A DNA stretch of 64,000 nt from Methylococcus geothermalis (GTDB lineage Bacteria > Pseudomonadota > Gammaproteobacteria > Methylococcales > Methylococcaceae). The position numbers were made by a program, and so were the translations under genes. The number at the start of each line of letters is the position of its first letter. Positions within the stretch are counted from its first letter, which is position 1. Below the pieces are notes generated by a model that ran no database searches, was not told the DNA's origin, and worked only from the letters and a program-made list of their open reading frames with translations. Of this stretch, positions 45,592 to 51,747 are shown one piece after another. Location of the stretch: positions 1,440,501 through 1,504,500 of the forward strand of contig NZ_CP046565.1 of assembly GCF_012769535.1 (NCBI RefSeq). Reading direction: 5' to 3'.

Positions 45592-46110
45592 TCAATGAAT
45601 GTGCATCTCCCGATTGTTGGCCTTATCGCTTCTTTCCAGCAGATATCTGTCCTGATCACCGGGCAGGGGCTTGCCGTCGCCGCTGAGATAGATCAGGGTG
45701 CCTTCGTCCCGGATGGCGAGGCGGCGCGGTGGGGCGTCCTTGTTGGGGGTCAGCACGACCAGGCCGTTTTTGTCATCCCACTGGTATCTGCCTTTTTCGA
45801 AGGACTCCCGGTTTTGCGGCTTTGCGGGCTGGATGACCAGGAGATACCGGTTCTTGTCGTTCAACGACAGGGTCATCTTCAATCCGTTGCAATTTTCTTC
45901 CTGGCACGGCAGGTAGCCGTAAAAGACGCCACGGAATTTGCCCGCTGATTCCTCGGCACCAGCATGTGCCGAATGGTCCATTGCGCCGTGTTGGTTCAGT
46001 TCACGTGCCTTGAGGGCTTTTTCCTGGAGCTCTTTGTCGCTTTCCGCCCCGGCGGGCGGGATCGCGCTAAGTAGCGCGCCGAAAACGAGGAAGGGGACCT
46101 GCTTGATCAT
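45592..46110 (-). CDS. NlpE-like periplasmic protein (copper-resistance NlpE N-terminal domain type)
   Basis: A 172-residue exported protein. MIKQVPFLVFGALLSAIPPA is a Sec signal ending near Ala-Gly-Ala; no lipobox Cys is present, unlike E. coli NlpE. A His-containing stretch (HGAMDHSAHAGAEE) is followed by GVFYGYLPCQEENCNGLKM, which resembles the NlpE N-domain FxGxLPCADCxG but with a wider Cys spacing. GTLIYLSGDGKPLPG and RYLLERS close the barrel-like domain. In-frame Met codons at 46131 and 46158 are alternatives. It diverges from a multicopper oxidase, which supports a copper-linked role. Confidence 0.7.
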   Translation of the reverse strand: MIKQVPFLVFGALLSAIPPAGAESDKELQEKALKARELNQHGAMDHSAHAGAEESAGKFRGVFYGYLPCQEENCNGLKMTLSLNDKNRYLLVIQPAKPQNRESFEKGRYQWDDKNGLVVLTPNKDAPPRRLAIRDEGTLIYLSGDGKPLPGDQDRYLLERSDKANNREMHIH

Positions 46111-46646: not shown

Positions 46647-48347
46647 ATGCCATCCAGCATCCATGTGTCACGCCGCCGTTTTCTCCGCCAGACCGGTCTG
46701 GGTCTGTTCGCTCTCGCCGGGGTGCCGGCCTGGGCACAGGCCATGACCATGCCGACCGGCCCGAAGCTCAGCCCGAACAAGGCATCGCCCGCGTTCGTCC
46801 CGGACGTGGAAATCGAGCTGGTGGCACGCCAGTCCTCGGTGGCTATCCTGCCCGGCCAGCCGACGCGGGTTCAGCAGTACGTCGCACGCTTGGTGAAAGG
46901 CCCGGAAGGCACGTTGACCAACCTGCCGGGGTCTTACCTCGGCCCGGTGATGCGCCTGAGCAAGGGCCAGAAGGTGCGCATTCATTTCCGCAACGAGCTG
47001 TCCGAGCCGACCATCGCGCACTGGCACGGCATGCATGTTCCCGCGCTGATGGACGGCCACCCGATGTACGCGATGGATCCGGGAGAGACTTTCGTTTACG
47101 AATTCGAGGTGCTCAACCGTGCGAGTCTGAACATCTATCATCCGCATCCGCACGAGATGACCGGACGGCAGGTCTATCACGGCCTGGCCGGTGGCATCCT
47201 GGTGAACGACGAGGAAGAGGCGGCACTGGGCCTGCCCGCGGGGGAATACGAGATCCCCCTCGTGCTGCAGGACCGGCGCTTCGACGCCGACAACCAGCTC
47301 GTCTATGTCCGCCACATGCACGAGCGGATGATGGGGTTTCATGGCGATCGCATCCTGGTCAACGGCCGGCCGGACTTCGCGGTCGAGGTGGCGAGCCGGG
47401 CCTACCGGCTGCGCATCATGAACGGCTCGAACGCCCGCATCTACAAGCTGGGCTGGGACGACGGCACGCCCTTGACGGTCATCGGTACCGACGGCGGCTT
47501 GCTGGAGGCGCCGGAGGTCAAGCCCTATGTGATGCTCGCGCCGGGCGAGCGGCTGGACGTCTGGGCGGATTTCAGCGGGCGCGGGGTGGGTTCGCAGATG
47601 GTGATGCGGAGCCTGCCGTTTTCGGGTGCTCTCCCGATGATGGCGCGGCGGATGATGGGCGAGATGATGCACAGCTCCTTGCCGCTGGGCAGCGATTACC
47701 CGCTGTTCACGGTCCGGGTGACCCGGCGGGTGAGCGAAAGCCCCAGCCTGCCGAGGCGCCTTGCGAAGCTTTCCCGCTACACCCTGGCCGATACCGCCAA
47801 TCCGGACAAGCCGCTGCCTCTGGAGATTTCCGAAGGGCCGATGTCCATGCTGCTCAACCGTCGCCCGTATGCCCACGACGACCTGCAGCCGTTCGAGCGG
47901 ATTCCGCTGGGCAGCATTCAACTGCTGGAGATATTCCACGGCCACGGCCGTTCGGGAGAGGGCATGGAGCATGGCGGCGGGCCAGGCATGGGCATGCACG
48001 GTGGCATGGGCATGATGGGGCATCGCGGCATGGGGATGATGGGAGGACACGGCGGCGGCATGGAGGGTGGCATGGGCATGATGATGTCGATGGCGCATCC
48101 CATCCATCTGCACGGCCAGTCCTTCCAGGTCGTCAGCCGCACGGTGAGCGGCGCGGTGCTGGAGGACTATGCGAGCGTGCGTGAGGGCTTCGTCGACAGC
48201 GGCTGGAAGGACACCGTGCTGACGATGCCCGGCGAACGGATTCGCCTGATCAAGCCATTCCAGGACTTCAAGGGCCTGTTCATGTACCACTGCCACAACC
48301 TGGAGCACGAGGACATGGGTATGATGCGCGAGTTTTCCATCGAATGA
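46647..48347 (+). CDS. Tat-exported multicopper oxidase, CueO/CopA-like, with Met-rich insert
   Basis: Three-cupredoxin oxidase of 566 residues. SRRRFLRQTG (8-17) is a twin-arginine signal. Trinuclear copper ligands: HWHG (125-128), HPHPHEMTGRQVYHGLAGG, HPIHLHG (484-490) and HCH (548-550). Type 1 copper uses Cys549, His554 and Met559 in HCHNLEHEDMGMM. Residues about 440-482 are a Met/Gly/His insert with 15 Met, comparable in kind to the Met-rich region of CueO. Likely periplasmic Cu(I) oxidation and detoxification. AAGGAGGGG precedes the ATG, which overrides an 82-codon upstream extension. Confidence 0.9.
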   Translation: MPSSIHVSRRRFLRQTGLGLFALAGVPAWAQAMTMPTGPKLSPNKASPAFVPDVEIELVARQSSVAILPGQPTRVQQYVARLVKGPEGTLTNLPGSYLGPVMRLSKGQKVRIHFRNELSEPTIAHWHGMHVPALMDGHPMYAMDPGETFVYEFEVLNRASLNIYHPHPHEMTGRQVYHGLAGGILVNDEEEAALGLPAGEYEIPLVLQDRRFDADNQLVYVRHMHERMMGFHGDRILVNGRPDFAVEVASRAYRLRIMNGSNARIYKLGWDDGTPLTVIGTDGGLLEAPEVKPYVMLAPGERLDVWADFSGRGVGSQMVMRSLPFSGALPMMARRMMGEMMHSSLPLGSDYPLFTVRVTRRVSESPSLPRRLAKLSRYTLADTANPDKPLPLEISEGPMSMLLNRRPYAHDDLQPFERIPLGSIQLLEIFHGHGRSGEGMEHGGGPGMGMHGGMGMMGHRGMGMMGGHGGGMEGGMGMMMSMAHPIHLHGQSFQVVSRTVSGAVLEDYASVREGFVDSGWKDTVLTMPGERIRLIKPFQDFKGLFMYHCHNLEHEDMGMMREFSIE

Positions 48348-48350
48348 ACG

Positions 48351-48387
48351 AAGTTCGGACGGGACAAGGAGCGTCCTGCCCGAACTT
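48351..48387 (+). terminator. Hairpin at the 3' end of the multicopper oxidase gene
   Basis: AAGTTCGG pairs with CCGAACTT (8 bp), then a 3x3 internal loop and GGAC/GTCC. It starts four bases after the stop. Absence of a T tract makes it a weak intrinsic terminator or an mRNA 3'-end stabiliser. Confidence 0.4.
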
Positions 48388-48507
48388 GCGAGGCACGTCG
48401 TCTTTTCCTGCGCCCCCCAAGAACGCCGGTGAGCGTTGCCCACCGGTTTTCACACGATTGATCCCTCCCGGAGTTTGGTCTACGCATGTGGACTCGTTGT
48501 TGAATTG

Positions 48508-48535
48508 GTAAATACGACTCATTATCATTCGTATT
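48508..48535. promoter_or_regulatory. Fur-like dyad upstream of the haem/Calx-beta gene
   Basis: AATACGA (48511-48517) and TCGTATT (48529-48535) form a perfect inverted repeat around CTCATTATCAT. By hand, 48508-48526 matches the E. coli Fur consensus at 13 of 19 positions, including all of TCATTATC. It lies 70 bases before the ATG. Iron control of a haem protein would make sense, but another regulator could use the dyad. Confidence 0.4.
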
Positions 48536-48604: not shown

Positions 48605-50410
48605 ATGAGATTTCACCGCCTTTTCCCGCCATCCTCTTTGGGTTGGTTGTGTGCTTTGATTCCGCTATGCCTGACTCCGGCGAATGCTGCACCGCCGGAC
48701 CCTTTCGAGGGATCGCGGCATATATTGACCGTGAAGTTCAACGTCAACCGGCCCGTTACGGACACGGAGGACCAATTCCGGGCCGTTCTCCAGCTCATGG
48801 ACGCCATCGACGGCGAAACGGCGGGCGTGGCCGAACATCACCCGGCCAAGGACGCCACCTGCGACCAGTGCCACGTCAAGGATTCCATCTCCGTGGACCA
48901 TGGCGGCCTGATGATCAATGAAGCGAGCCCGGCCAAGAGTTGTGAAAAGGCCGGCTGCCATAGCCTGACGGTGGCGGGGGAGATGCCGTTCTACGTCAAA
49001 CCGTTTGCATCGCTGGATGAAACCAAGAATGCCAAACTGGCGAAGCAGCGCCTCGCGGCGGCGCGGGATCTGTTGCAATACACCGCCTCGCTCAAGAATA
49101 GTGCGGTGGTGCGGCTGGGCGGATTGCCCAAGATCAGAGATTTTGCGATCGACATCCGCGCCCAGGACAAGCGCATCAACAACCTGACGCACGATGTGCC
49201 GCTGGTTTTCTTCGAGCCGAAAAATGCCTTCGAAGTGAAGAAAAACGGGGATTTGCTGCCCCAGTATGCCGCCGGTCTGTCGAACGAGGTGCTGTCCCTG
49301 GTGGCGCAGGACATGAGTGTCGCTACCCGGCTGGACGGGACGGTGGAAGCCAGGATGGCCAAGGCTTCCGATGTGTACAAGTACCTGTCGCTCGCGGATC
49401 GCGATCTGTCCATACAGCATCTGCTGACGAATTCGCAGCTCGTGCTGCGTTATCTGGCGACCCTGCCGGTCGATACCGCCGATTTCGTCTCGTCCCGGCT
49501 GGCGGAAGATTTTCCCGCTGCCGTGCTCAAGACGGACGCTACGGCCGGCGAGGCCGCGACCGGCCTTCGCCGCACCATCACCTGGGAAATTCCGGCGGCG
49601 GCCAATGACGGGGTGAAGGCCGCCACGATCATATTCCAGCGCAACGAGGAGGGCAGCCGGACCCAGCCCTCGACGCAATTGCAGTTCCAGCGGCTGGCCG
49701 GCTCCATGCGCGGCACCGCCGTCCGGATGCTCGAACTCTTCCAGGAACGTTATTCCGCGTTCGCCGCCGATCATGCCCGCTTCACGTTGACCTATCAGGC
49801 CAGCCAGGAGGCGGACAAGAGCCTGCTGACCACGGCGATCGGGAATTCCAGGGAAGCTGCGGCTGCGGGCGAACTCAGGCGGACTCTGGCGCACAACGAA
49901 AACACGGCCACTGGCACCCTGCCGGCGCCGGGCCAAGTGGGGGCGGCCCTCGGCGCCGCCAAGGAGATCGCGGCGGCGAATCCTGCCGTGATCCGCAGGC
50001 TCCGCAGCACGCTGCGCTTCAAGCCCGATCTGACGACCGTGTCCCAGATCAGCGGCGAGGTGCTATTGGGCTCGCTGCCCCGCGTCTGGGTGTCGGCTGG
50101 CCGGACCGAAGTTGCCGAAGGAAGCGGAGAGCGCTTGGTTTTCACCGTGTCTCGCGAGACGCCGACCGACAAGTCCTTGACCGTTCATCTGACGCTGGGC
50201 GGCAGCGCTCAGCCGGGCAAGGATTACCTCAAGCCCAAGCTTCGGGTCACCCTGCCAAAGGGCGTCGCCAGCGTGGACGTTTCGGTGAAGCTGCGCAACG
50301 ACCGCCTCGTCGAAGGGGCGGAAACGATGACCCTGGCCATTGCGGGAAGGAAGGAATACACCCGCTTGCCGGCCTCGGATGCAACGGTCACCATTGCCGA
50401 TGATGATTGA
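48605..50410 (+). CDS. Secreted protein with two haem-c motifs and a C-terminal Calx-beta domain
   Basis: A 601-residue exported protein with an unusual layout. Signal peptide to about residue 28 ([16 protein letters not shown]). Residues 78-119 look like a small multihaem module: His78-His79, CDQCH (86-90, CX2CH), His99, then CEKAGCH (113-119, CX4CH), enough His for bis-His ligation. Residues 130-490 match nothing I recognise. Residues 491-601 are a Calx-beta domain ([50 protein letters not shown]), usually calcium-binding and extracellular. A surface or periplasmic electron-transfer or adhesive role is inference. The start at 48605 gives the signal peptide; its ribosome site is weak. Confidence 0.8.
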
Positions 50411-50544: not shown

Positions 50545-51747
50545 ATGCGTATCGGAACCCCAAATTCGCACTCCGCCGTCCGGGTGCTGCTCCTGGGCAG
50601 CGGTGAACTCGGTAAGGAAGTGGTGATCTCCTTGCAGCGCTATGGTGTCGAGGTGATCGCCGTCGACCGCTATCCCGGCGCCCCGGCGCACCAGGTTGCC
50701 CACCGCGCCCATGTCGTCGACATGACGGATGCGGCGGCGATCCGGACGCTCATCGAGCGCGAGCGTCCGCATTTCATCGTGCCGGAGATCGAGGCGATCG
50801 CCACCGATGCCCTTGCCGACATCGAGCGGCTGGGGCTGGCGAAGATCGTGCCCAATGCCCGTGCGGTGAGGCTCACCATGAACCGTGAAGGCATCCGGCG
50901 ATTGGCGGCGGAAGAACTGGGCCTGCCGACATCGCCCTATGCGTTTGCCGATTCCTGCGACGCCTTGGCCGAAGCGGCGGCGAAGATCGGTTTCCCCTGC
51001 TTCGTCAAACCCATCATGTCGTCCTCCGGCAAAGGCCAGTCGATGCTGAAGGGTCCCGACGATGTTGAAGCGGCCTGGGCCCATGCGAGGGAAGGCGGGC
51101 GGGTCAAAGCTTGCCGCGTCATCGTCGAAGGCAGGATCGAGTTCGATTTCGAGATCACCCTGCTGACGGTGCGTTCACCGACTCCGGCAGGCGATGCCGG
51201 GATAGCATTCTGCGAGCCGATCGGCCACCGCCAGCAGGGCGGGGATTATGTGGAAAGCTGGCAGCCGCAGCCCCTGAACCCGAAAGCCAGGGAGCGGGCC
51301 GAGGCGATTGCCCGCTCGGTAGTCGATGCTTTGGGGGGGCGAGGGCTGTTCGGTGTCGAACTGTTCGTCCGGGGCGACGAGGTCTGGTTCAGCGAAGTGA
51401 GCCCGCGCCCGCACGACACCGGGATGGTGACCATGATCAGTCAGGCGCAAAACGAATTCGAACTGCACGTCCGCGCGATCCTGGGGCTTCCGGTCGACAC
51501 CGCTTTAAGGCGCCCCGGTGCCAGCGCCGTGATTTACGGCGGGATGGCCGCGGAAGGCATCGCTTTCGAGGGACTGGAGCAGGCGTTGAGCGTGCCGGAA
51601 TCCGAGATTCGCCTGTTCGGCAAGCCGGAAGCGTTTCCGCGGCGGCGGATGGGCGTCGCTCTGGCGGCGGCGGATACGGTGGATGAGGCCCGGCGCCGGG
51701 CGGCTCAGGCGGCATCGGCGGTACGGCCGGTGGCGGTTCCGGCGTGA
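50545..51747 (+). CDS. purT: Formate-dependent phosphoribosylglycinamide formyltransferase
   Basis: ATP-grasp enzyme (GAR transformylase 2) that uses formate for the third step of purine synthesis; 400 residues. [21 protein letters not shown] starts it in part; [21 protein letters not shown] and [14 protein letters not shown] (ATP-binding loop) follow. [25 protein letters not shown] and [13 protein letters not shown] are PurT signatures. Free formate is a C1 intermediate in methylotrophs, so the choice of PurT would suit one. The in-frame extension upstream is not PurT-like. Confidence 0.95.

Follow-up and report, generated by a model that had tools for sequence, protein, structure and literature searches.

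Architecture of the P0001 gene

The window analysed here, a stretch of 64,000 nucleotides from Methylococcus geothermalis (host genome, a single contig of 3.37 Mb), contains a gene for a predicted exported protein, named P0001, whose parts are listed with the neighbouring genes in Table 1. A sequence-only reading of this DNA had proposed a 601-residue frame from ATG to stop that encodes a signal peptide, closely spaced CX2CH and CX4CH haem sites with extra histidines nearby, about 360 unrecognised residues and a C-terminal Calx-beta domain. Our analysis reproduced this layout throughout, with ~365 residues lacking a family in Pfam or NCBIfam. The signal peptide, which we likewise read by eye and in which no lipobox was seen by eye, varies in sequence in an alignment of the four orthologues described below. 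With an export signal (by eye) and CXnCH motifs, P0001 has the features that serve as the general criterion for c-type cytochromes. No model in Pfam or NCBIfam spans the whole protein, and at the sequence level we agree with the earlier view that no named family unites two predicted haem-c sites with a Calx-beta domain.

Table 1. Features of the P0001 locus, with positions numbered from the first base of the window
Feature	Position	Strand	Details
NlpE-domain gene	45592–46110	opposite	next upstream of multicopper oxidase
Multicopper oxidase (left neighbour)	46647–48347	+	PF07732, PF07731
Fur-box-like site	48511–48529	+	AATACGACTCATTATCATT; 75 bases before start codon
P0001 gene, predicted exported protein	48605–50410	+	601 residues; ATG at 48605, stop ends at 50410; two haem-c motifs, orphan middle region, C-terminal Calx-beta domain
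Signal peptide	48605–48688	+	residues 1–28, by eye; putative cleavage after ANA
Predicted paired haem module	48836–48961	+	residues 78–119; HH-x6-CDQCH-x8-H-x13-CEKAGCH
Orphan middle region	48980–50074	+	residues 126–490; no family match
Calx-beta domain	50090–50407	+	residues 496–601, PF03160; C-terminal end DDD
PurT-like protein (right neighbour)	50545–51747	+	PF02222, PF21244 PurT_C

Predicted haem sites and their conservation

The two motifs, CDQCH at residues 86–90 and CEKAGCH at residues 113–119, together occupy 34 residues. Both CX2CH and CX4CH are known spacings for haem c. In the mature protein (residues 29–601), cysteines occur only at positions 86, 89, 113 and 118, all inside the motifs, and these four residues and both motif histidines are invariant in 4/4 orthologues. 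Equally invariant are histidines 39, 78, 79, 99, 390 and 430, among which HH 78–79 and His99 are the extra histidines near the motifs. Whole-gene dN/dS ranged from 0.24 to 0.31 over the six orthologue pairs, while residues 29–125 gave 0.11–0.24; set beside the three other segments compared (the signal peptide, the middle and the Calx-beta part), the haem part had the lowest value in four of the six pairs. We infer from the motifs and their conservation that CDQCH and CEKAGCH carry two covalent haems, which makes P0001 a predicted dihaem protein with His78/His79 and His99 as candidate distal haem ligands.

The earlier reading had also likened this part to c3-type modules. CX2CH followed by CX4CH resembles cytochrome c3, and P0001 shares with the c3/c7 families this order of sites as well as histidines before and between them. 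Residues 78–122 matched Cytochrome_C7 (PF14522) weakly yet consistently, at 12.4 bits (E = 0.14) against a cut-off of 24.8 and below threshold in 4/4 orthologues (best E = 0.052), and Paired_CXXCH_1 (PF09699) gave 7.6 bits, below its cut-off of 20.6. The likeness thus stood as a faint family signal, whereas by score P0001 lies outside the c3/c7 families; it also differs from them in having two haem sites only, fused to long haem-free parts. A phmmer search of residues 56–127 against PDB returned two sequences, both labelled ‘Cytochrome c’ (7lq5, E = 0.34; 8d9m, E = 0.86), with local likeness over 33 residues at the haem pair and a histidine near the matching place. Both entries are presumably OmcZ, a multihaem wire protein, whereas P0001 has two sites, and neither match is significant. 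The weak Cytochrome_C7 and PDB matches to the putative haem pair are therefore hints rather than signs of membership.

Calx-beta domain and orphan middle region

The C-terminal domain matched PF03160 with 41.2 bits (cut-off 27, E = 1.9e-10) over profile positions 10–119 of 119, and the same model matched 4/4 orthologues. In a whole-genome search, P0001 held the sole PF03160 match of the host. Residues E502, E505, D540, E570 and D599–601 are invariant in all four orthologues. Such acidic residues are calcium ligands in Calx-beta domains; the calcium stabilisation envisaged in the sequence-only reading is putative, though in keeping with their conservation. DUF5006, which also fell on this part (E = 0.18), was discarded as a weak name. 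Elsewhere in the Methylococcaceae, small proteins at two loci (L006 and L013) follow the P0001 layout in having a signal-like start (by eye) and a single terminal Calx-beta domain that ends in DND and is 31% identical to that of P0001, but, unlike P0001, they lack haem motifs. No haem motif was present in the frames at 15 Calx-beta loci (L006–L020), which were analysed as cut stretches that cover long proteins in part. Given these small proteins elsewhere in the family, the Calx-beta domain may have a broader use in Methylococcaceae, as a module for the surface or for stability.

Between the predicted haem pair and the Calx-beta domain lie 365 residues that are 84–87% identical between P0001 and its orthologues and include the invariant His390 and His430. 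Neither P0001 nor its orthologues gave an above-cut-off match to Pfam or NCBIfam in this region, and a profile of residues 126–490, a search proposed in the sequence-only reading, found nothing in PDB at E values of up to 10. By eye, no catalytic motif was recognised. The PRK12516 sigma factor model, which matched here (E = 0.035; 13.5 bits, cut-off 321), was rejected as a weak name. AlphaFold2 models were computed from four alignment rows for full-length P0001 (mean pLDDT 29.7, every residue below 50) and from four close rows for residues 126–490 (mean pLDDT 37.4, 43 of 365 residues at 50–70). Both are too poor to show whether the haem motifs are buried; the model of the middle region suggests helices followed by a small mixed alpha/beta part, on which we place no weight.

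Distribution and genomic neighbourhood

Full-length homologues were detected in four of six Methylococcus genomes, the host included (G000, G010, G011 and G013), and are lacking in G012 and G014. The three same-genus genomes match P0001 at 86–87% identity, with 86% over the full length for the orthologue of M. capsulatus Texas. In the other 305 genomes of the order, no full-length homologue was found. A profile of residues 28–493 matched 7 of 311 order genomes, in full in the four Methylococcus genomes and as short, weak hits in three. The full P0001 sequence matched 10 of 38 family genomes, six of them solely within residues 477–601, at the Calx-beta end. Class and phylum samples, which overlap with each other and with the order set, gave matches in 3/369 genomes (two Methylococcus, one short match) and 2/398 genomes (own genome, one short match), respectively. 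Outside Methylococcus, the hits amounted to five short, weak matches (L023, L026, L027, L028 and L029) with E values of 3.5e-4 to 7.1e-3 per genome. Those at L023 and L026 contain internal stops, and L029 was dismissed as a chance match because its frame, which we take to be arginine succinyltransferase-like, has no haem motif. Among named genome contigs across phyla, 63 pattern matches included one relative, that of M. capsulatus Texas, in a single-protein scan that detects close relatives only; 83 pattern matches in viral contigs included no relative, and plasmids gave no pattern match. As far as searched, the P0001 family was found only in Methylococcus.

The multicopper oxidase gene is separated from the P0001 gene by 257 bases. 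In G012 and G014, oxidase and PurT matches are 123 and 136 bases apart, respectively, and the P0001 gene is therefore absent between the same neighbours. The PurT tree places G012 with G010, the oxidase tree places it with G014 and the outgroup, and G014 is next to the outgroup in either tree; whether G012 lost the gene or others gained it is not settled by these gene trees. An operon with the multicopper oxidase is not favoured because of the 257-base gap, the conserved promoter-like site described below and the presence of the oxidase without P0001 in G012 and G014. Counting against separate transcription, a scan found no plus-strand terminator between the two genes. By eye, an inverted repeat is visible in the same interval at ~48351–48387. 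In the oxidase itself, the last copper domain is preceded by a stretch rich in Met, Gly and His.

A conserved Fur-box-like site upstream of P0001

Upstream of the start codon, the Fur-box-like site has 17 of 19 columns invariant in the four orthologues, compared with 158 of 261 over the intergenic region. Four of 243 windows of 19 columns reach 17 invariant positions: one pair at this site and another pair near 48373. With up to three mismatches, the site pattern occurs once in the window (0.01 expected) and three times in the 3.37-Mb genome, two of them besides its own position, with none for the reversed control; the related pattern AATGAGAATCRTTATCATT has four genome matches and none in the control. 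The E. coli-type Fur 19-mer agrees with the four orthologous promoters at only 12 or 13 of 19 positions; when the window is cut into 426 successive pieces of 150 bases, 13 of them likewise score 12 or better. A Fur protein is encoded in the host genome (E = 1.8e-44). In addition, a weak sigma-70-like match at 48500–48528 overlaps the site with its second hexamer, as a repressor site would; the stretch scanned has two sigma-70-like matches against 0.4 in shuffles, the second being on the opposite strand. We regard the Fur label for 48511–48529 as plausible.

Larsen and Karlsen (PMC4831470) describe a sigma-54 sequence and a FUR box in the promoter of the MCA0424 cytochrome operon. One of the genome matches to the site pattern (L052) falls at the place of this published FUR box, which matches the site with three mismatches, and the published sigma-54 sequence is present there. 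At the corresponding host locus (L054, G000:C1:271000-276000), where the sigma-54 sequence and the FUR-box position are conserved, two large multihaem cytochrome genes lie adjacent, the second being the apparent MCA0424 counterpart. At L055:1501-2724, a further genome match forms a near-palindromic Fur-like box, AACGAGAATTGTTCTCATT, 32 bases ahead of a gene that carries CSSCH and CAACH motifs and by eye resembles members of the MauG/cytochrome c peroxidase group; a divergent gene lies on the opposite strand. The closest genome match to AATGAGAATCRTTATCATT, with 0 mismatches, is located at L053 near 2041 (L051), before a small frame starting MNRLPSTPAEPQ.

Probable relation to MCA2010 and copper limitation

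In M. capsulatus Bath, MCA2010 is recorded as a ‘predicted c-type cytochrome’ with 3.2-fold higher expression under copper limitation (PMC4831470), and Table 1 of that paper marks it ND, with no detection by mass spectrometry. The same source gives cytochrome c1 as MCA1960, 50 tags from MCA2010; in the Texas genome, the distance between the P0001 orthologue and cytochrome c1 is 44 kb, or 46 called genes. The gene caller used for Texas is crude, with one doubtful 50-residue gene and some gaps that resemble missed small genes, and 46 called genes are therefore compatible with 50 tags. The intervening Texas genes contain one haem-like motif (CGTCH, position +15), in a product without a signal peptide by eye. 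Judged by this gene counting with a crude caller, that is, from gene order and not from the Bath sequence, the P0001 gene is very probably the counterpart of MCA2010, and it has probably already been recorded and measured under that name. According to the published methods, the search was for CxxCH only, so a CX4CH site would be uncounted in that study, and ‘calx’ does not appear in its main text (PMC4831470).

For Bath, the same study reports 51 candidate c-type frames that encode a leader or a membrane helix, and it describes MCA0421, MCA0423 and the SACCP MCA2590 as copper-repressed proteins of the surface fraction that increase under copper limitation (PMC4831470). These resemble the probable counterpart MCA2010 in being c-type and raised by copper limitation; they differ in belonging to the multihaem cytochrome c553O or MauG families, for which the main text mentions no Calx-beta domain. 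Bath cells starved of copper produce more anodic current and reduce more ferrihydrite, and the current is lower when MCA0421 is deleted; according to the authors, the exact roles of the several cytochromes need more study (PMC6281684). MCA2010 does not occur there. ‘Calx-beta’ is likewise absent from the main text of a Bath secretome study (PMC4257694). In the open-licence literature, we found no mention of MCA2002, MCA2003, MCA2009, MCA2011, MCA2012 or MCA2013, and none of Calx-beta combined either with multiheme and cytochrome or with cytochrome c, heme and domain. The surface electron carrier envisaged in the sequence-only reading thus gains circumstantial support from a probable counterpart that is raised together with surface cytochromes, while the ‘ND’ entry for MCA2010 speaks against it.

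Proposed function and alternatives

We give an even chance to P0001 being an exported dihaem c-type cytochrome of copper starvation that transfers electrons at the cell envelope or surface. It would be exported by the Sec pathway and receive two haems at CDQCH and CEKAGCH from the cytochrome c maturation system. With His78/His79 and His99 as sixth ligands, two nearby bis-His haems would result, similar to one step of a multihaem wire. This haem head might accept electrons from periplasmic or surface cytochromes and deliver them either to an outer acceptor or to whatever partner the orphan middle region binds, while the C-terminal Calx-beta domain could anchor the protein on the cell surface or stiffen it with calcium. 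The Fur-type site would repress the gene when metal is plentiful, so that it would rise with the surface cytochromes at copper shortage. Against this cytochrome reading, the published induction is by copper limitation, whereas a Fur site would point to iron.

The conserved Fur-box-like promoter site, the Fur protein in the genome and the copper-limitation response of the probable counterpart MCA2010 would also suit a role in metal acquisition, in which the exported haem protein, by reducing or retaining Fe(III) or Cu(II) close to the cell, would allow metal uptake during starvation, with electron export to minerals either absent or a by-product. The P0001 gene moreover adjoins a multicopper oxidase gene, with an NlpE-domain gene one further. 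However, the six neighbours scanned include no receptor, transporter or siderophore genes, the oxidase is also present where the P0001 gene is missing and the middle region has no known metal-binding site; we consider this role possible though rather unlikely. A different division of labour, with the middle region as an enzyme to which the haem pair merely supplies electrons, would accord with 365 residues retained at 84–87% identity and with the invariant His390 and His430. This region showed neither a family or PDB match nor a catalytic motif by eye, and an enzymatic function seems to us improbable.

Covalent haem is itself a prediction and the family matches remain under cut-off, which would also suit four cysteines that instead bind zinc or form disulfides in an envelope structural protein. 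Both cysteine pairs, however, end in CH with spacings known for haem c, shuffling the mature sequence 200,000 times produced both motifs together once and the extra invariant histidines are placed to suit distal ligands. The genus also exports many c-type cytochromes, judging from the 51 Bath candidates (PMC4831470). A protein without haem appears improbable. Returning to the exported dihaem cytochrome, a bolder and improbable extension is that P0001 represents a Methylococcus-specific class of surface redox proteins, built from a bis-His haem pair, a linking fold peculiar to them and a Calx-beta domain that responds to calcium; if so, calcium at the surface would determine the place at which electrons exit the cell under metal starvation, or whether they exit at all.

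Many exported cytochromes of Bath rise in copper starvation. P0001 is compact, with two predicted haem sites. Its predicted build, a haem pair followed by an orphan middle region and a Calx-beta domain, is unusual for a cytochrome of the copper-starvation set. If its haem and calcium parts cooperate, a new link from calcium to outward electron flow would emerge. As related species either carry or lack the gene at this one place, between the oxidase and PurT genes, natural variation can be used to test the contribution of P0001.
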